DNA of 40,418 nt from Saccoglossus kowalevskii (Eukaryota; Hemichordata; Enteropneusta; Harrimaniidae). The stretch's first letter is position 1, and each line of letters opens with the position of its first letter. Below the pieces are notes generated by a model. The model did not search any database and had not been told where the DNA came from. It worked only from the letters and a program-made list of their open reading frames with translations. Of the stretch, positions 6,890-33,900 are shown one piece after another. Where the stretch lies: positions 328,285 to 368,702 of the forward strand of contig NW_003143793.1 of NCBI RefSeq assembly GCF_000003605.2. The letters run 5' to 3'. A program made the position numbers and the translations under genes.

Positions 6890-7735
6890 ATAATTTTGTT
6901 CATAGTAATATAGCTGGAATATAACCATGTCAGGAATATGATTTTTTTAACATTAAAATGATTGACATTTGTATCTGATCGTCAAACAAGTACTTGTCCA
7001 TATTGAGAGATTGCTCTGGAACAGCATTCAAAATCGGCCATTTTGAATACATGTATAACATGATGTATAATGAATATATAAAATTTGAATATAATCAGTC
7101 AAAGCATTTAAGAGATATGGCTCTAGAAGCCCATTCATTAAAACAAAATGGCCACCAGACAGCCATTTTGAATCCGATCTGAAAAATAAAATGATGTGCA
7201 TCAGGAACCTGTAGTCTGTACCAAGTTTGAACGAAATCCATCCAGAAATGCTTGATATTTGATGATTTTTTAGCACAATAATGGCCACCATTTGGCCATT
7301 TTGAATAGGATCGTCAAACCAATATATCTGACATGATATATATATAATGAATATTTAAAATTTGAACATAATCAGTGAAAGCTAGTCAGAGATATGGCAC
7401 GAGAACCACATTCATTAAAACAAAATGGCCGCCAGTCAGCCATTTTGAATCTTATCTGAAAAACAAAATTATTTGCATCAAGGTCCTATAATGTCTAACG
7501 TGTATACCAATTTTGAACAAAATCCATCTTTAAACAGCCGAAAAATGTTTGATTTTTATGCCATTCGGCCATCTTGAATCAGATCATGAAACAAATTGAC
7601 GTGCATATGTATAATATGATGTATGTGTAAAGTTTGATTGTGATTAGTCCAGGCATTTCTAAGATACAAGTCCAGACGCTCGGAGGTCAAAACATAAGTC
7701 CCCGTTTTCAGACTGCGTCCGAACGGGGACTAAAA
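6890..7735 (+). repeat. Family-B dispersed repeat, copy B1, with 3' hairpin
   Basis: It is built of degenerate units about 140-150 bp long separated by self-complementary joints of the type aaaatggccgccagtcagcc followed by attttgaat (near 7034, 7145, 7281, 7422 and 7565). It ends in a 35-nt hairpin (7697-7731) with arms AGTCCCCGTT and AACGGGGACT, followed by TAAAAAA. The start is shared with copy B2 (taatatag(c/t)tggaa..catgtcag). Short open frames across it are incidental. Confidence 0.75.
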
Positions 7736-18900: not shown

Positions 18901-21900
18901 GGTACATATATGTGAGAATCGATATACGTGAAATATTTGATTGACAAAGATTCACCTTGTTCAGAATTACTGAGGGTCATCTATACTGAATCCATATACA
19001 AACAAACACTAGTCAAAAGCTTTGTGTAACAAATAACCAAATAAAGACCAAAATTGGAATGTTTAATTAATATTTCATGCAAATGCAGAAGTTTTAATAT
19101 TTTAAACAATACTACATGTGGTAGTCCCAAAATTCCAATAAAGCTGCTGGAATATCTTATATTGAAGCTTCAATAAATCACAGTTATGAAAGGATTATGT
19201 GGAAAGTTGGAAAAGTTATTTGTATATATAACAGCAGTTTGTTTTTGAATTTACAAATACTTATTTTAACACAAGATATACTACAAAGTTGAGACACTGA
19301 ATAAAAAGGATTAAAAACAGTTTTATCTGCTGTTCACAAAGTTATTACACTCTTTACAAAATGTATAATAATATAATATATATAAAGAGTTTGGACTTAC
19401 ATTGTCTGATAAGTACTGTTCAAATATATTAAGTGCAGCAGCTCTTAACATTTCTGGATCTGAACCTCCATAACCAGCAGCTGCGGCTCCTGTAGATTCT
19501 GATTCTGCTTGTTGTAAATGATACGCTGACAACTGCTGCTCTGCTGTCACTTTGTAACTTTCAATTGTTAACCAGAAAAACAAGTAGCCTTGCCCTCCAA
19601 CTTGACCAATAAATTCTAAAAAAGGGAGCAACGATTTTGAACTATAGCGCCCTCTAATAATGCTTTTGTTTTTATTAAGGTGTCTCAACGTTATGCACTA
19701 GTCAATTAACATCTCCAGAACAAGTCCCACCATTCCCAACACCAGGAGCATATTTTGGCGGCACATACCGCCACCTCAGAGAAGCACACAAGCCCCAATA
19801 AATTATACACTCTCCTGACATATCATAACCCAGATATTTCAATTCTTAAACATAGTTCTTTAATAGTCACACAATTTACTAGATCTTGTGTATATGGTAC
19901 ACTGTTCGGACCTCAGATCCAATTGATTGCATTGATTGAAACATCCTAATAAAAACAAAATCATTATAAGAAGGTGCTACATTTTAAATTTCAATTGACT
20001 GGTGAATTAGTTGCAAATGGCCACAGTCCGCAGGGGTATGGTTAAGGGTGAACAACTAGAGTTGTTTCTGCCTCCTAAATAGCTCACCCCTCAATCGTGC
20101 TCACTGTTCCAACATATCCATGGTATTTAGAACACTACAATGACAAGAGACAATGGAGCACTGTTCGAAAAGGGAAAAACAAGTCTCATGGTTTTCTCAC
20201 TCTCTGCGGCCATTTCCATCTAGGGTATACAGTATTATGAGTTGCACTGCCGATAAGCTGATGAGAATGATACTACTTACCAATAAAATATGATAAAGCA
20301 ACATTATTTTCTAGTACCACATCTAATGGTAGTGAATACAGACTCTGTCCTGGCAGTGGAGAGAGATCTGGTTCCTGCAACATAATACAACAATCTAATA
20401 GGTACACCTGCATCATATCAATTGGAGCCAGCAGCAATGCTGCGTTCTCATTTGCACATATTAGCTAAGCTGCCTAAATCTTAACCATGATACTGAGATA
20501 GTACAAGCAGAACAAGGGCTACAACATAATAATGATGTTACGATCCCGCTTTTGGCCATAATAATGATATATTTTAGCCAAATGTATAATTCATATTTGT
20601 GTACAATGAGAAAGGAGGCAGATTGTCAACAGAAGTTAAAGCCAACTCATATGCACACATGTACTTGTCATACCGGTAAATGCATGTATGCAAACAAAGA
20701 TGGTGAAGCGCAGAGACAACTTATTGTTGCCACATATTAAAATATAATTTTCAGATGAAAAGATGTGGAAACCTCACTGTTCTCCTAAACACTAGGCCCT
20801 ATAGAGACGTCCATGCAAATGACCAATTGTGATGATGTACTTACAGCTTTCAATAGGCTTTTAACAGCCTAATTGTATGGTTGTACAAAACAAAATAAAA
20901 TATAAATGAAGCAAAAAATGATGAATGATTAAATTTATTAATTAATAATAACTATAAAATTGTTAATTTAGTGAACCAATCAGTGCAGTCCCTCAAAGAT
21001 AAGTTATTTTTCAGTGATGAAAAGTTTGTTGAGAAATAAAAAAAAAATTAGCAAATCCAAATTGCCGACATGTGCAGAGCTAGATGCAACAGGTGATATT
21101 CAGTGCAGGCATGCCATCTGACGGTGCCAAAACAAGCGATGAAACTGAAGTTCTTCAACCATCTACCATGCAAGCAATGAACAAATGTGATTGCATACAG
21201 TAAAGTTACATTTAATAATATACAATCTGTCATGACATGAAATCATGCAAGTGACTATATGAATGCATACTTACAGCTTCTATAGCGGCATCAAGATTTC
21301 CTTCCAGTAATCTTTGTAATGTTTCTAAGCAAACTCTTCTAACATATTGTAGACTATTCAGCTGCATTTTAGTGTCTGAGTCTGGATAAAATAAGATGCA
21401 GGTTATTGGTAGCAAACATTAAATCTCATATTTTACAAAAATTTCATACACGATTAATTATCACAAAAACGCACAGAAAACATTACATGTTATTACCATG
21501 TACTACATATTATTATTCAGTAGCTGTGAACTTGATGAATTTATTTTCTTTTAAATATTTCTCAAGAACATTTTGGACCAGGCGTTTCCTGGCTTACATT
21601 ATCTAGTGAATATCTACTGCTAATGATGCAGCCTTATATAAATTAAGACAATTTTGAAATGCCATCACTTGTATCACATGTATTATTATATAAATACTCT
21701 TTTTGGTCTGCAAAGAGTAAATAAATCTATTTTTGTAACTCACCATCAGTGCTGGAATCTCTTGATCTCTGTATACTGATTTCATGGTCTAATTTTTCTA
21801 TAACAGCCTCTAATTCACCAATACTGTCAGATATCTTGATTATATTTAAAAAATAATCACTGGTGATATTTGTCTCTTTGCTCTGTAAAAACAGTTGGAT

Positions 21901-24900
21901 AAAAGATGTATGTAAAGAGGGGGGAAACCCTAGTAACACCCCTTTGAAACCACGAGATAGATAGTCGTGTTTTATAAAGTAAATGACCTATCCTGGTATT
22001 TTTACAATATTAGAAATCACTGTGTACTGGAAATCAATTCCACTGCGATGGACTGAGATCATAAATTTACTCGCAAAACTGATTTTAACATCTCACAGAA
22101 CAAAGCCATTCAGTACACCATTAAGGTTATAGGTTTCACACCACAATTAGAATTGGTATCAAGGCATTGGCACTTCTGAATATAATTCTATTTTGAAACA
22201 AGCAGAATGTCGGCTGAGATAGCTCCGCTGTTAGCAAAGAACTGAAGATATCATTAGAAAATAAACAATATGTATAGTATCAAAGCAATCGGACTTGCTG
22301 TTTTTAACAAGAAGTCGAAAATATCACTTTTTACCAAAAATGCCAAAAATATTCACCAAAATTAGGGAATTAAAGATATCATTACAAAATGAACAAATCT
22401 GAGAGAGGTCTACATGTAGTACCTATATAGGTAATATCAAAGCAATTGGAATTGGTTTTTAACAAGAAGTCGAAACTATCACTTTTTACCAAAAATTACA
22501 AAAATATTCACCAAAAATAGAGAATTTGAGATTTTGACATGAAATGAACAAATCTGAGAAAGAACCATCCAAGGTACTTGCAAATCAAATTTGAAAACAT
22601 TCTGACTTGCGGTTTTGAAGAAGAAGTTGAAAATGTAATGTTGATGACGACGACCGACAATCAGTAATATGAACAGCTCTGCTGTGTCGACTTTGTCGAC
22701 AGTGGAGCTAAAAACTTATTTCAAACTGTTTCATTTAATACCAGAATAAACAAGACCTGACATTTGTAAATGGAATTTTAGTGAAAACCAGCTGGTTTTG
22801 AAATGGTGATCGATATATTTAGAGTGAGCACTCACTCGGTCAACTTTTCTAATACTGCCAAATATCAGTGCAGTTGAAATGGATTCAATTTCGGATGTTC
22901 AATAATATGATGATGCTATTTACTATTTTATTTTAAAATACTAGACAAATGATTTGTTTTTAAATTCTAGGTATTGGACTCAAGTTTTTACATTGTCATC
23001 TATGAGGAATTTAATTACATGTACCGGTAATGTGCTACTATACTGTTAAAAAACACAATAAGGATAATACATTTTTGTATAATTATGTTCAGGTATATAC
23101 AAAATACCGGAGGAGTGCAGGTCATATCATGATATTAGAATAGGAAACATTCACCCATACATGTATTTAAGAAATATAATTTTTGACCTTGTACATGGAA
23201 AGTTCACAGACATCGGGCCGCAATAAAATTTAGAATTCATACTGCAGTCCGTAATACTTTACTGAGACACAAACTAATAATGAAGTGTAGTTGTGTTAAA
23301 CCCATTCCACTTACCAGCCTTTTAATTGTTTGGTTTATGTAATCAGGATGATGTGTGGATGTGTTAAACCCATCACACTTACCAGCCATATAATTGTTTA
23401 GTTTATGTAATCAGGATGATGTGTGGATGTGTTAAACCCATCACACTTACCAGACATATAATTGTTTGGTTTATGTAATCAGGATGATGTGTGGATGTGT
23501 TAAACCCATCACACTTACCAGCCATATAATTGTTTGGTTTATGTAATCAGGATGATGTGTGGATGTGTTAAACCCATCACACTTACCAGACATATAATTG
23601 TTTGGTTTATGTAATCAGGATGATGTGTGGATGTGTTAAACCCATCACACTTACCAGACATATAATTGTTTGGTTTATGTAATCAGGATGATGTGTGGAT
23701 GTGTTAAACCCATCACACTTACCAGACATATAATTGTTTGGTTTATGTAATCAGGATGATGTGTGGATGTGTTAAACCCATCACACTTACCAGACATATA
23801 ATTGTTTGGTTTATGTAATCAGGATGATGTGTGGATGTGTTAAACCCATCACACTTACCAGCCATATAATTGTTTGGTTTATGTAATCAGGATCTGTAAT
23901 CATATCTATCATTGGTTTCAGCATTCCACAAACGATAACTTCACGTAATAAATAACGAAATGGTTTGTTATGGAAATCTTGATGGGGTAGCATCAGAAAC
24001 AGTAACATGTCAGTCACGTCTCTCAGGTATTCTAATAAAAAATAAAATAAGATAAAATTTCAAAAATCATCCGCAACCCAGGGCTACAAAATCACACAAG
24101 CCAGTTTATTGTGTGCTGCATTATTAAAGAAGAACTTATTTCAACCATTAACAAGCCTCTGTCATTTTATGCAAGTGCATGTGCTACTACCAGATTCTGC
24201 GGTAAATTCGGTAATACTGGGGGGTAGTCAGAGAACAGATCTAGTACCATATAATGCACTCACATCTGAATAGCAGAAAATACTCACCTAATTCAGCATT
24301 TTCACATGTGCACACTTCATCTCTACATTTGTTTACTTCCATCTCCACCTCAATGTCAAAGAACAGTGATTCTAACTCATTGTCACAACTTTCACTTTGC
24401 TCTGAAATATACCAATCAATTGTGCATCAGTATGATCATTACAAATACCTTAATGTTCTAGTGAGGGACATACATATACTTCAACTAAAACTTGTTTCAA
24501 GGAAGAAATACCCTCTATAATGTCTTTTCTCTATGTACATGTATATCTATTTGTAGTAGAAGGCAATGATTTGAGCTGTTGTTATGTATGCAATTGGATT
24601 TTGATAATCATACATGTAACTACTCTGATGAGAATGACCAATCACAAAAATACTTTCTTCAAACACTGACAATTATCTAACAGTGTATGATGGCCCATGA
24701 TTTTTATTATTATTTCATGAGGCAGAATCCAAATTCTCTATACTAAAAATATTAACAAACACTACTAGTGACAATATATTAAAATTAAAAAAGATTTTTA
24801 GCAGATTTAACCATGTGACTTTCAAACTTCCAGGGTGGACATGTTTTGTGTTCTACACTGCATACCATATACAGAATGGCAAAATAAAATGCAATGAACC

Positions 24901-27900
24901 ATCAGTTCAGCCAACTTATGTCTGCTATTTTATGTGTTGTGCATTTTTCACCCAATAAACCTTACCTTCACCTTAACCTTACCTTCAAGAGAGCGATGCG
25001 CTTTGCTCAGTTTCTCATGAGCTTTGCGGAATAACCTCAGGTGGGAGGCAAAGTCATCAACTAACTGCCTCGTAAGATATGGAACCCATTCAACTTCTTT
25101 TGATCTGCAGAAAAAGCCATAATTATTATGATTCATTAACATTGGTCAGTGTGACTACTAGCACAGCTTTCTGAACAAAAAACGAACCATTATGCAAGTG
25201 TCTATGAAGTGATAAGTAGAACATGATAATAATGTCAACCACTTCATTCATATATACACATGTTTACCTGTTACTAAATGCAATAATCACACTCTGTGTT
25301 GTTTGTCTCAAATAATGTAAAAATTCTTCATGATCGCTGATTTTACCATGGTACCAGGTCTGTACATAGTATCGAAATGCTAACTGCAAAACCTGTTGCA
25401 TTACAAAACAAAATACACAATATTAGTGAAAAAAGACTGATCATGATGCATAAGGGATCATTTTGGAGCATCAGAGCAGCAACGTAATGTTGACGATCAT
25501 AGCATACTGTATAGGCATTTATTATTCACTGGGTTTTAATTTCGCTATTTTCGCTAATAAGTAAAATCCGCTAAATTAAATCCATCTGAACATGTAAAAT
25601 AGCTAAAGAACTCATTAATTCCTTGACAAGTGAATTTGCTAAAAGCATTAAAATAGCAAAATTATATGTCATAGTAAATAATAAGTTTTACGGTATGCCG
25701 TAGGGGGCTTTCATATAATATCTACGCTGAAATCAAGTACTGAAAAAAATATATTGTCAGAGTTCCTAAATTCAACACATAAAACATGTACTACCGATTG
25801 CTTGCTTATAATATTGGTTCAGGTGAAAAATACTATATAAATCACAGGAAATCATTACATTTTGTATCAGTGAAAGTTTGACTGAGTTTTAATCACAAAC
25901 CCTTTAAATTATTGAAAACAAATTTAGTGGTGAAAATATCATTGTATGAATACAACAATTTTGTATATAAAGCCCACTGTAGCTAGATACTTTATCCTTG
26001 ACAATAAAGATTACCGGTAGTTAACTTTGTCACTATTCACAAATTTGTAATCTATTTAATTTTTTCACAATTTTTTTCAAAATTATGTGTATTTGTCAAA
26101 ACTTATTAAAATAAAATAGAAAAATACATAAAAACTGGCAAACTTTTGCACCAAACATTGCTAATATAACATTTTTGGGAGTCCAAGGTCACTGAGGTCC
26201 TTAAAACAGGAGTCATTATGATAATGATTTTCGTGAAAAAAATACATTGCAACTTATACATGTACTGGACATACATGTACTACACAGTTACAGGTAATTT
26301 TATGAAAGTACTGAAAAAATGGATTAATCTGTTAAAATAAACAAGTTTTATAAAACATGTCCATGTAAACACTCTTGTTATGAAATAACGAAGATTCCAA
26401 GCAGCAAAATTTTAACAATTCACAGTTTAATAAGTAGATACATGTACATTTTGAAAGTTCAGAGTCATATGTTAAAAAAAAAAAGAAATACTGTGGCAAA
26501 CAGGCAATTCAGGTTATACTACATCAACTTGATATGTGATTATTACAGGAGACTTGTCATGCATGCTAGAGTGAAGAATGCAGTTGACAGGGTTATCAAA
26601 CCAGATAATTTGATTAACCCAACTGAGGACTGGCCCAAGGGAGCCAATCACACACACCAATACTTTTAGTTGCAAACCATCATAAAAGTACAAATTAACT
26701 CCCCAAAGAAGCTCAAGAAGATGAAACGAAGCAGTACATATAATCACTCGTACATGTACATGTGAAAAAAAACACAGAAACAAGATGAAAGCAAAATGTA
26801 CTGCGGTGTGAGAGAAGTTTAACATCAAATATGCCCCATTAAATAATTACCTGGTTGTCTAATGGAACGATCACTCTGTAAAACTACTTATTCACATGTA
26901 AATACAGTTGTCCAATTTTTCAGTTTAATCTTTAAATGCCAAGGCCAACTATGAATAACTATTGGTGGTTGCAATTTCAAATTTGAATATTAATTTTCAT
27001 CAGACAAATTCTCAAAAATGTTAAAAACACATGAAACGCATAATAATACTACATTGTACTATGTTCTAATGTGTCAAATTTCTGCATTAATTTTCATGGT
27101 TATCCCAATGAACTTTTGTATTATCAAGAAATTTGAATTTTACATATTTATTTATTTTTTATGTAACAGAGAAGTGTGGGGGGGTCTAAAGTCAAACGTT
27201 CTTGATTATTACTCACAAGATCAAATACCCGGTAGTTTCTTTTCAAAAAGTAGTGATAACATATGTATAAATATTAATTTCACAGTATCCAATTTTATGA
27301 ATATTCATTAGTCAGCTTGTCAGCTGCATATTCGGGAGACTTAAAGATCTCTTCTGTATTTTCAAAAAAACAATCAAGATACATATATTCAATACGAGTT
27401 TTTAATTAACATTATAAAATTAATCCTTTGAGTGCCAGATACATTTCCCACCCAAAAGTTTTCACGTTTTGTAAAATTTTCACTAATAAATTCTATCACT
27501 ATATTGCTTTCAGTTTAAGATGAAAATCAATTTTATCAACATTTCTCAAAAAGAGGAGCAGTATAAGATAATTGTTTAGACGGTGCCAATAGTTGACAAT
27601 GGTGCTCAAGGGATAACATTCCTGATTTCATCTTTTGAATATATTCAACATTCCTGATTTCATCTTTTGAATATATTCAACATTCCTGATTTCATCTTTT
27701 GAATATATTCAACATTCCTGATTTCATCTTTTGAATATATTCAACATTCCTGATTTCATCTTTTGAATATATTCAACATTCCTGATTTCATCTTTTGAAT
27801 ATATTCAATATTCCTGATTTCATCTTTTGAATATATTCAATATTCCTGATTTCATCTTTTGAATATATTCAACATTCCTGATTTCATCTTTTGAATATAT

Positions 27901-30900
27901 TCAACATTCCTGATTTCATCTTTTGAATATATTCAACATTCCTGATTTCATCTTTTGAATATATCCAAAATTCCTGATTTCATCTTTTGAATATATTCAA
28001 TATTCCCGATTTGATCTTTTGAATATATCCAACATTCCTGATTTCATCTTTTGAATATATTCAACATTCATGATTTCATCTTTTGAATATATTCAACATT
28101 CCTGATTTCATCTTTTGAATATATTCAACATTCCCGATTTGATCTTTTGAATATATCCAACATTGCTGATTTCATCTTTTGAATATATTCAACATTCCTG
28201 ATTTCATCTTTTGAATATATTAAACATTGCTGATTTCATATTTTGAATATATTCAACATTCCTGATTTCATCTTTTGAATATATTCAACATTCCTGATTT
28301 CATCTTTTGAATATATTCAACATTCCTGATTTCATCTTTTGAATATATTCAGTATTCTTAATTTATATATTTTGCATTCATCCAATGGGCTTCTATGTAA
28401 TCAAAAATGTATACAACAATGTATTGCATATACGCAGCACTTTCTTCACCATAAACTCGGTTTCCTATAACAGGATATGAGTAATATACACTGTGGTTTA
28501 TTGTTACATGTACAATACATTTTATCTAATTTAACACTGGTGTTTTGCTAGATTAATACTTATTAGTGTCCTTAACCCATATACATGTACAGATTAAAAA
28601 AAATCGTGATATACACAACTTGCGCCCCTTGAAAGTGAAAGCCTGTGGTTATAATTTTTAACAGATTGCCAGAATCTGAATAAAACAAATATCAAAATTA
28701 AAATTTACAGCAATTTGTAGATTATTCATTAATGTAGAATTAAACACAGTGTGCTATATCATCGGAAAATGAAATTTTAGTTTCACTAAAAAAAATTCCA
28801 TCACTATAAAATAGTAATTTATGCACATAATGTGGTTTTCAGCTGACTAATTTATGGGAAATCATTCCTAGATTTACCAGTATTGTAACAGTTATTTTGG
28901 TTGCTACATTACATGTAATTTTAAAGTCAGAATCAGGCCAGCATACATGATAACACATACCATAAATAGGGCCTCACAAGCGGTGTCAACAACATATTAA
29001 TACAGTATATCTAAATGTATTAATTATGAGAGAATGTCTGACACATGACGTAAATAACGATTGGTTTATATAGACCTTAAAACATAATAAATTGATATGA
29101 ATTTAATTTGGTAAATTATTGACACTTTTTTTTTAAGTCCATAACATTTATTTAAATTTAATACACACAACTTGCTACAGTAAGTGCTAAAACCACATGG
29201 CTGATACCATTCCGTTTTTAGGGGTGACAGGTGAATTATACATGTACACAATACAAGATATTATACATGCACTATACGTCACCAATACACTTATCACAAC
29301 CGTTAACATGTACATTTTGTTTCACTGCTTTAACTGATCAACAATAGAGTTTATAATAGAGTAGAATTTGTTGCCTGCTATTTTATCCTTCTCTGCCAAG
29401 ATGGTTTGTTCTGATAATATCAACTAAAATGACCTTGTATGCAAGAGCATAGAAATATATAGGTCACATGACAATTACACCATTTACCACTCAACTCATT
29501 TCATGCTAATTTTAGAAGTTAATTTCTTGACATACATTGTACAAAAGAAATTGAAATTGAGAAAACATTACCTATCAACATTGGATGCCCCAAGGACAAA
29601 GAATGATTATAATGAATAATAGTGTTATTAGAATGTGTGTTCAGTACGAAAAGCAATAACACATATTGTCCACATTTGGGAAAAAAATCATTCAATTCCA
29701 TGAATAAACAAGCCATGCATGGCACAGTCGCCCGTTAGTTATCAAATTTAAGATATATAGTTTTGTTTAAAATAATATAGTTGGAACATAGACATGTCAG
29801 AGATATTGATCCCGAAGCTAATGCTTGATTATGTGATTTTTTTTAACATTAAAGTGGTTGACATTCAGTCATCTTGTATCTGATTATCAAACGAGTACTT
29901 GTCTATATTGAGAGGTATTGCTCTGGAACAGCATTAATTAAAACAAAATGGCCACTTGTCGGCCATTTTGAATACATCATTCTGTATATCAATGATGTAC
30001 AATGATGTATATCATGATGTATAATGAATACATAAAATTTTAATATAATCCGTCACAGCATGTCACAGATATGGCAATAGAATAAAACAAAATGGCTGCA
30101 AGTCGGTCATTTTGAATCCCATTTGAAAAAAAACATGATGTGCATCAAGGTCCCATAATGTTCAATGTATGTACGAAGTTTGAAAAAAATCCATCTCTAA
30201 ACGGCCGAGATCCGGTTCTGGAATGCCAGAAATGCTTGATTTCAATGATTTTTCAGTACAAAAATGGTCGCCGTTCAACTATCTTGAATCAGATCGTGGA
30301 ACAAATTGATATGTGCATATATATATATATTATTATGTATGATGTATGTGTAAAGTTTGAATGTAATCGATCCAGGCTTGTCTAAGATATAGGTTCGGAA
30401 GCACACATGCACACACAGAGGTCAATCTGAACAAGAACTAACAATACACAAGTCATTGTATCATTTAAATAGTAAAATATATAATAATACCAATCCGGAA
30501 TCAAAATTGATAGTTTACCGAATGTTTTCCACTTTTGTTAATCAAACAGGCTGCCCACTTTGACAAGCAAAAAAAAATATAAAATACAGAAATCACACAG
30601 TAGTATAACTGTAAATCATTTTAAAATTGAAGGAACAAATTTGTTGCTATGTTCAGTGACTTGCAAAATTCGTACAAGTGAAAATTTCTTTGTGAATTTT
30701 TGCAAAATGTTGTCTTTGCAATACTATAAAACCTCAACTCTTGAAAATTCCTAGAGGCGAAAATTAAATGGTTTGCAACATTACGATCATATTTTGTTGA
30801 AAAAAATATTCATCTTCTGAGTGGTTTTGAAAAGCTGGATCCTGACATGATTTAGATCACAGAGCTATCATTGTTCAGTTCTATGCTTTGAATGATGACG

Positions 30901-33900
30901 CAGACACCACCAATTATTCAGGATTATTATTTTGTGAAAGGTGACAACAGTTGGCTTTGACATTCAAACGTCAAACACAAAACAAGCCTTCTAATTGAAC
31001 AACTATGTTTTCATGTGGACAACCAGTTTCTCAGAGTGGTTGTACCACTGGACAACCAGGTATTTTTATTTAATTTTGACTCCTGAAAAATAATGATAAT
31101 GATATCAGCTATTTGCTAGTTCATTTTCGAACATGGCAGCCATCAATGAACTTATTTTGGAAAAGCATTCTTTATGTAACGATATATTTAAATATGACAA
31201 TCGGCCATCTTCGACCAGATTTTGAAACAAATTGTCATGGACATGCATCCTAACATGTATAAAGTACATGTATGTGCCAAATTTGAAAGAAAACTGACAG
31301 AGCACGTCCAAGATACCGCATAAAAAAAAACAACAAGATGCCTGCCAGTCGACCATCTTTGATCCAATTGTGAAATAAATCGTCATGGACATGTATCCTA
31401 GCATGTATGATCTATGTACCAAGTTTGAATGACAACTGAAAAAGCATGTCCAAAATACAACATTTTCAAACAATAAGATGGCTGCCAGTCGGCCATTTTG
31501 AATCGAATCGCTAAACCACTGCATGTGCATATGTCCCAAATAGGGTACAAGGCAAATGCAAAGAATGAACGGAATCGGACGCACAGATGCATAGAGACCG
31601 AATTACAAGTCCCCGTTTTCGGACTTCGTCCGAACGGGGACTAAAAATAATACCCTGAATTTCAACAAACCTTTTTTGTCATTTGCTTGAACAATGGAAA
31701 ATCATTACAAACCCAAGGCGTCTTATTATTTCATTTTTATAGATGATCACTTTTTATTTTCTTGTTATATATTCTAACTGGTTAGTATCATTCTGAATTT
31801 TCATATTTGGAGTGTTAATGCAGCAAAGTCAGCCTTTCAACCTGCCTATTTTTATTGATAACAACAATTTGAGATACAAACCAAATTGTACAGAAAAAAA
31901 CAAAAAATTACTATCTTGGTAAAACAAGATCATTGTCAGTAGGCCATCTTGGATTTGATCTTAACAGAGACCAACTTTCAATGATGTGATAGAACACAAT
32001 TCATCTTTTCACAATCAAATGGTTAGAATACCAATTCTCGTCCAACAAAATGTACTGAATACCACACAGTTATTTCAATTCATTGCATGGATCAATACCA
32101 GTAAAAGATTATATTTGAACCATTAATTAAGGAATATAAATGACAATTGGTATTGATTGGATTGTGACATGCAAATGTACGTTTTGCAGAAAACAATGTG
32201 AGTACATGTGTATGAGACAATCCCAGCTGGGGTATTGCCCTGTCTGCATGCATATATCATGTATCAGAAAATGCACTTGGTTTTCAAAGAGAAATATGCT
32301 GCAACATCTAGGAAAAGTACACCATGTTAGAGTATTACCACTTACGTCATTACGTCACTTTACATCAGAAAAAAAATTACGTACAATATGTAATATCATG
32401 GCATTATTTTAGTTCAACAATTAGACTATTGTCAAATATTGAATGTAAATTACTAAACGTTGCAGATAATTGAAAGTGTGTTCTTATTGGGAGATCATTA
32501 CCATATATGGAGTCTGGTTGTCAGATGATAACTATATAGCTAGCAAGCTGGGTGAACAGAGGAATATCAATGTGTGTGAATCACCAAAATTCAATCATGT
32601 CTTCACACATTTGAACAGATTGTCAAAACCACCAAAGAATCTTTGATTTTTACCTAATTCAGCTAATTTTTATCTTGAAATTTATTTATTCGTGTTGTTT
32701 TTTCTACACATAACTTAATATACAAGCCTCTATTAAAGCTACATTAACAATAATGTTTGATTTCTTTCTTCTTCAAGCATACTACTATGCATAATTACAT
32801 TTGAAATGAATAACACTGTAGTGTCCGTGATAGCAAGGCAAAGACATGTGCAATTAGTAAGAGCCGAGAGCAATGACATGCTCCAGTAACCTGCCATGCA
32901 TGATACAAGTTTAGATGAGCCTGTCTGATGTTCAGAATTACATGTTCATGTGAATCCAATCAGCAGATACTGAGAGACAGAGAACAATACACACGAGCCA
33001 ATTATAGTCATAATGTTATTATATATGTACATGTATGTATGCCAATACAAATGCAATTTAGTCTCTGAGTCTCATCTGTCACATTTAATACTACGGTAGT
33101 ATTTTATACATACATTCTGTCATATGAGCTCTAAATAATTATAGGTATCAATAAATATCAGAGGTAACAAAATTAACTAACAACGATATTTAATATCTTT
33201 GCACTGGTATTCATTTTTATGATTTTTTTTGAGGGGAAAAAAAATGGTCTTGATTTGTTTTCACTGAAATTCGCATACAAACATATAATGTATCTTAAAA
33301 CATGCAAATAATGAATAACACACACAGCTAGCACTATATACAATATATATATATATACTCGATATATATATCAGTGTTTGAAATTAGTGCCTGAGATTGG
33401 TAACTAGTCAAGCCAGATGTCTGGTAACCTTTTTTATGATCTGCTGCGATTAAAATTTTGAAAAATGCCTTTTTCTGGATAATATTATTGGATGAAGTTA
33501 CGCGCTGTTTTCCTCAGATGATGTAACAATTTAAAATGGGACGTTTTAATTATGAATCAGACTTCTCGGATCTACATGTACCGGTACATGGAAGTGACAA
33601 CACATTTGAAGGCGCTGACAAGACTCTCAAATATGTCTGCATGACAGATGAATTCTATTTTTTTTTTGCTGTCAGTCGTATAACAATGGTGTTTATGTAA
33701 ACCAAAAGTCACAGAAAAATGAATGAAAACATAGACTTACCTCTTGTAATGGTTCATCTATGATGAAGGCTCCAGTTAATCTTTTGTCAATTTTATATTT
33801 GGGTTCTTTTTTTTTAACTTGATCTATCAACTAGAAATACAAATACAGGGAGGGACATTAAAAAAGTAGCAATTGACATTCACTAAATATAATAGTACCA

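Follow-up and report, generated by a model that had tools for sequence, protein, structure and literature searches.

A nine-unit minisatellite overlapping the splice donor of a PXA-coding exon in a probable SNX13 gene of Saccoglossus kowalevskii

In a probable SNX13 gene of Saccoglossus kowalevskii, the splice donor that closes the PXA-coding region is the first of nine near-identical donors, each of them lying in one 68-bp unit of a minisatellite, and it is the only one that joins the next exon in an open reading frame. The anatomy of the array, the frame, the stop codon common to all the other donors and a nearly equal predicted pairing of the donors with U1 were established directly on the window, as we call the whole stretch of 40,418 nucleotides that was analysed. 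We consider it likely, with a probability of about 0.68, that the array is a tolerated minisatellite, donor 1 being used mostly and the other copies being mostly ignored; the dominance of donor 1, the level of leakage, the decay of misspliced mRNA and the near-neutrality of the array are what we infer under this reading. The locus offers a clean natural test of splice-site choice, with nine near-identical donors, one acceptor and one productive outcome. It sets a natural string of nine donors against a first-donor rule that was measured on designed pairs, and it adds a case to the kind known from the human CBS, ABCA7 and IFI6 genes.

RESULTS

The minus strand of the window carries a gene with exons coding for two Pfam domains above cut-off, PXA (3.7e-30) and PX (1.8e-17). 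An RGS domain was not matched by its own exon alone and reached 0.0028 on a hand-joined piece, and a Nexin_C match reached 0.0078, both values being below the curated cut-off. With these two sub-cut-off matches included, the order PXA, RGS, PX and Nexin_C was the expected one, and the domain layout, as read from the predicted exons, appears to be that of the SNX13/14/25 architecture, pointing to a PXA-domain sorting nexin. Going by the human protein sequence, we take the gene to be probably SNX13 rather than SNX14 or SNX25. In searches of the PDB, the PXA piece gave no match and the PX exon gave 18 matches, none of which was named SNX13. The exons for PXA and for PX have both kept their family matches, which is what one would expect if the gene is in use.

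The exon that ends in the array, exon 7 in the numbering of the original prediction, was delimited from its translation and splice context at 23859..24031 of the minus strand (173 nt, with the predicted acceptor TTTTTTATTAG/AATACC, where the slash marks the boundary between intron and exon). It codes for the end of the PXA domain, another PXA-coding exon being located further upstream in the gene at 24948-25145. The exon 7 peptide matched PXA at 3.5e-17, and the PXA match hit profile position 181 of 181 at the last codon of the exon, the 3'-end of which reads ...ATA TGG CTG/GTAAGTGTG. The predicted exon 8 (21744..21882, minus strand, 139 nt) has the acceptor TTTTTACAG/AGC and the donor ATG/GTGAGT. 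With these exon limits, predicted from the sequence, the PXA-coding exon closes at the donor at 23858, from which exon 8 is reached in phase 0 across an intron 7 of 1976 nt, in agreement with the original prediction that the first unit of the array is the real exon end. Intron 7 also contains AATAAA or ATTAAA at four places, which bears on a conceivable shielding by U1 from premature polyadenylation, and, at 22278-22559, a 155-bp unit present in 1.8 copies (two 108-nt copies, 86% alike), with a weak third copy of 36 nt (64%) at 22580-22615.

TRF placed the minisatellite at 23280-23893, with a period of 68, 9.0 copies and 97% matches, and cutting the sequence in register gave nine units running from 23893 down to 23282 (612 bp, minus strand), so that both approaches agreed with the nine 68-bp units that had been predicted. 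The predicted span of 23296..23893 was correct at its upper end and too short at the other, since a start at 23296 drops 14 bp of unit 9 and the true start is 23282. Each unit is composed of 35 nt of the end of exon 7 followed by 33 nt of the start of intron 7, as anticipated for a repeat made of an exon end plus its own donor. The last 35 nt of the exon are indeed present in every unit, but not as identical copies, the differences being found at position 32 and in units 8 and 9. A 29-nt core, searched with up to 3 mismatches, matched nine times in the window, always inside the array, and had 0 matches in each of 100 shuffles, which rules out a chance origin of the array.

Five units (2, 3, 4, 5 and 7) have the same sequence, from which units 1 and 6 depart solely by a G at position 32. 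This G is accompanied by one further change in unit 8 and by seven private changes in unit 9, which lies at the edge of the array and is off the consensus at 8 of its 68 positions. Position 32 (G in units 1, 6, 8 and 9, T in units 2-5 and 7) falls in a codon that is TGG (Trp) in the true exon and TGT in units 2-5 and 7, and a coding constraint on this Trp would explain the difference between unit 1 and those units. In unit 1 the position corresponds to 23862; T is present in five of the eight later units, and its copying back into unit 1 would change the Trp (TGG) of the exon to Cys (TGT). The intron half of unit 1 is the same as that of units 2-8 and differs from that of unit 9 at 5 of 33 positions, showing that the real exon end belongs to the homogenised block. 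The identity of units 2-5 and 7, together with the divergence of unit 9 at the edge, suggests recent internal turnover, and the copy number presumably drifts in the species. Because turnover keeps the units alike, selection on the decoy donors cannot be read from their likeness; the seven private changes of unit 9 all lie outside the core CTG/GTAAGT and are too few to mean much. Read by eye, the unit boundary and the downstream flank have a 2-base AT in common, which is compatible with slippage or microhomology.

Five identical units are a setting where assemblers miscount, and the nine units could be the product of the assembly of a true locus having fewer or more of them. We hold this to be highly improbable, since four units (1, 6, 8 and 9) are not the same as the identical five, two of them (8 and 9) through changes of their own, both flanks of the array are unlike the unit, and the seven private changes of unit 9 are not what an artefact would invent. 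The count of nine may still be wrong.

Donor 1, GTAAGTGTG, is located at 23850..23858 of the minus strand, and the decoy donors are contained in units 2-9 (23282..23825, minus strand), their first intron G lying at 23790, 23722, 23654, 23586, 23518, 23450, 23382 and 23314. The sequence CTG/GTAAGT is present in nine of nine units. An identical donor had been claimed for all nine, which is true of GTAAGTGTG in eight of them, whereas unit 9 has GTAAGTGGA. Donor strength was taken as the energy of the RNA duplex formed with the 5'-end of U1, and the predicted pairing was -11.0 kcal/mol in eight units and -10.2 kcal/mol in unit 9; the nine equal U1 sites of the original prediction are, on these figures, eight equal sites and a slightly weaker one. 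When the 147 GTs between a point 300 nt upstream of donor 1 and the end of intron 7 were scored, the next best of them reached -6.8 kcal/mol. Among the 2391 minus-strand GTs of the window, three score better than donor 1; its score is found at eight GTs, all of them in the array.

Counting from donor 1, units 1-8 have no AG apart from that of GTAAG, and unit 9 has one further AG (its G at 23319) in the exon part, which is not preceded by a pyrimidine tract. The claim that no acceptor precedes the exon fragments holds in substance. Judging from the AGs of the units, no cryptic exon having both splice sites of its own was found within the array, and no AGGT was seen by eye in the nine 68-bp units. 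Recursive splicing and pseudoexons made of units were discarded because the units have no acceptor, and the gain of an intron through tandem duplication of a segment with AGGT was discarded because they have no AGGT. In the available text on intron retention by decoy exons, non-productive intronic splice sites may interfere with excision (PMC8706089); those decoy exons have an acceptor as well as a donor, whereas the units here lack the acceptor.

Donor 1 alone, among the nine, gives an in-frame, stop-free join to exon 8. As had been predicted for the later donors, all of donors 2-9 (8 of 8) led to a stop, and together with the retained intron they all read ...IIWL-VSVMGLTHPHIILIT and then meet the in-frame TAA of unit 2 (23813-23811 in the direction of reading, 23811..23813 of the minus strand). 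Every misuse has one common product, ending 15 residues past the PXA domain; a single truncated protein common to all misuse, as deduced from the translation, goes beyond the original prediction. With donor 9, exon 7 would grow from 173 to 717 nt. Nonsense-mediated decay is expected of the misused transcripts, further exon junctions being downstream of the stop.

An RNA hairpin enclosing donor 1 was predicted at 23847..23889 of the minus strand, in which ATTACAT..ACCA of the exon end pairs with TGGT..GTGTGAT across the junction, at -12.0 kcal/mol in unit 1. The corresponding energies were -12.0 to -12.3 kcal/mol in units 2-7, -9.7 in unit 8 and -6.8 in unit 9. The predicted cost of opening positions -3 to +8 was 11.1 kcal/mol at donor 1; over 79 non-array GTRAG[TAG] sites it averaged 5.2 (sd 2.35), and three of these sites reach the cost of donor 1. 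The hairpin was picked after folding, so that the shuffle figures are generous to it: the energy of the 43-nt hairpin was reached by 14 of 5000 shuffles of the upstream arm, by 19 of 5000 full shuffles and by 1 of the 79 non-array GTRAG[TAG] sites. It was reached by 11 of 5000 sequences with intron positions +7 to +12 randomised, while 1428 of 5000 synonymous recodings of the exon arm reached it, and because recoding the exon so often keeps the energy and randomising the intron so rarely does, it is the intron arm that makes the hairpin unusual. In folds of two units the outer stem of the hairpin re-paired elsewhere. Larger folds were unremarkable, both for one unit (z -1.26, 24 of 200 shuffles as stable) and for two units (z -1.19 and -1.26, 31 and 25 of 200), and the whole array of 612 nt did not go beyond its shuffles (z -0.76, 5 of 20 as stable).

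The donor hairpin of about -12 kcal/mol in units 1-7 is new here and, if the folding model is right, could weaken the first-donor rule. The hairpins of units 8 and 9 being weaker, the prediction is that of all the decoys donors 8 and 9, which lie nearest to the acceptor, are the least occluded. Later donors, and especially those of the less occluded units 8-9, might then be used substantially, yielding decayed mRNA or much of a single truncated product made of the N-terminal part, the complete PXA domain and 15 residues, the allele being damaged or coding for a short isoform. The convergence of eight donors and intron retention on one stop and one protein would suit such a use, as would the end of the PXA match at the last codon of exon 7 (181/181), the weakest hairpins being those of units 8 and 9, and the preference for intron-proximal donors described in classical work. 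We nevertheless judge it distinctly unlikely, given the slightly weaker U1 pairing of unit 9, the 717-nt exon made with donor 9, which exceeds the usual sizes for exon definition, and PXA and PX exons that still match their families as in a gene in use. The dominance of the first of equal donors (PMC6783452, in the part of the article available) also argues against it.

DISCUSSION

Under the tolerated-minisatellite reading, a stretch of 68 bp lying across the exon 7 donor would have been tandemly duplicated and then expanded to nine units. With the array downstream of an intact productive donor, donor 1 would be spliced in most transcripts, leaving a small leak through later donors, chiefly that of unit 2, or through intron retention; the leaked transcripts, with one premature stop in common, would be degraded or would code for a PXA-only protein. 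The array would be chiefly a by-product of minisatellite turnover; to judge from the published cases, leakage would be slight, and the length of the array may have a modest effect. Such an array could persist because, however many whole units are lost or gained, one exon end and one donor stay in place. A dedicated function would not be required to explain the array. By a rough estimate, the 68-bp seed of a long minisatellite would have a several-per-cent chance of covering a donor at roughly one donor per kb in the gene, the number of exons being that of human SNX13.

Classical work on duplicated sites is said to favour the intron-proximal donor, as is the work of Hicks in 2010 going by its title, and this speaks against the dominance of donor 1. 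That dominance is expected, on the other hand, from the ABCA7, CBS and IFI6 arrays and from a reporter library in which the first of two tandem donors was predominantly used when both were consensus (PMC6783452). According to the accessible text of the same study, sequence outside the site can override the first-donor rule, and splicing is strongly affected by a hairpin located at a splice site or close to it (PMC6783452). Our preferred reading is weakened because the rule rests on reporter pairs and not on nine donors, and because donor 1 lies in a strong predicted hairpin with donors 8 and 9 less occluded. With a 68-bp insertion in CBS, the splicing machinery is stated to prefer, out of two duplicated sites, the more distal one, which the available text calls a donor (PMC2630376); we read it as an acceptor, the duplicated piece being the intron 7/exon 8 junction.

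By its sequence, the array appears to be a minisatellite overlapping an exon's splice donor, of the kind known from human CBS, ABCA7 and IFI6: it is a head-to-tail array with a unit within roughly 10-100 bp, well above chance, having the true donor in its first unit and usable-looking donors in the further units. The CBS repeat is reportedly tied to reduced activity, going by the title of a report by Lievers in 2001. The IFI6 unit is a dodecamer, with which later donors need not break the frame, whereas here, with 68 nt, all the later donors meet a stop. The likeness of IFI6 (6-16) lies in a minisatellite that supplies multiple splice donors, two downstream units being used and three mRNA species being produced (PMC4526556, citing Turri et al. 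1995, in the text available). The CBS VNTR, c.1444_1467+7(16_21), is described as 16-21 units of 31 bp in human cystathionine beta-synthase (PMC2630376). In our own reading of its HGVS name, the unit is similarly made of the last 24 nt of an exon and the first 7 nt of an intron; it differs in its 31 bp, in being human and in a number of units shown to vary, whereas the unit here has 68 bp (35 of exon and 33 of intron) and is known from one assembly.

In the accessible text on the ABCA7 intron 18 VNTR, about 12 to 427 units of 25 bp are reported, and the array starts at the exon 18 donor, the donor of the next unit adding one out-of-frame unit that leads to a premature stop, much as in our array (PMC5954066). 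Retention of one unit via that donor was 2 +/- 1% across tissues and unchanged by length, and longer arrays went with more skipping of exon 19 and lower expression (PMC5954066). The ABCA7 array differs in that its unit starts at the donor GT, no exon end being included in the unit as that text describes it, and in being polymorphic with a measured correlation with skipping. Human arrays of like anatomy are reported from patients and controls (PMC5954066, PMC2630376, as far as their available text goes). In human segmental duplications, tandem repeats at exon-intron boundaries can reportedly give rise to novel introns (PMC2812944); as described in the part available, they have in common with our array a minisatellite expansion at such a boundary, and differ in being variable and located in or at exons of recent paralogues, whereas no new intron is indicated here. 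These cases and ours suggest that arrays spanning a donor come about wherever the end of an exon happens to be overlapped by a minisatellite. No mention of the present array was found in the literature covered, most subscription papers being outside it, which makes this weak evidence of absence.

The original prediction also proposed that the array might titrate U1 or tune the splicing of exon 7, a role that is conceivable. Since the length of the ABCA7 array is tied to downstream exon skipping and to expression, an effect of copy number is conceivable here as well. The eight strong non-productive U1 sites would compete with donor 1 or shift the recognition of exon 8, and array length would set the level of full-length protein. 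We find this joint claim unlikely. Predicted U1 pairing is indeed far stronger at the nine donors than at any other GT scored (147 in all, the best of the others at -6.8 kcal/mol), and skipping of the predicted exon 8, the 139 nt of which are not a multiple of three, would break the frame; in the ABCA7 text available, array length is inversely related to expression and directly to downstream exon skipping (PMC5954066). However, the ABCA7 trend spans alleles of up to 10.7 kb, the array here being of 0.6 kb, about that of the ABCA7 reference allele, and the use of the next-unit donor did not vary with length (PMC5954066). Copy number is, moreover, known here from one assembly. We would regard as very doubtful the bolder proposal of a heritable, fast-mutating dial on SNX13, in which each unit adds a hairpin-gated U1 site, the number of units sets the ratio of full-length protein to the truncated one with its complete PXA domain, given the one stop at which all later donors and intron retention end, and gene conversion may carry a Trp-to-Cys change (TGG to TGT) from the array back into the exon.

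Minisatellites are not rare in this stretch of DNA, as a second long array (23 copies of a 32-bp unit, 95% matches by TRF) was found in the window at 27615-28351; it is upstream of the PXA-coding exon at 24948-25145 and presumably intronic in the same gene. At the edge of the window, 53-192, there are two short tandem repeats with a 22-bp period (3.0 and 2.0 copies). Finally, minus-strand ORFs at 7028-7354 and 31105-31640 contain, by eye, recurring similar wording, such as SDSIQNGRLAAILL and DDPIQNGQMVAIIVL, which suggests that these ORFs may come from a repeat family dispersed in the genome.
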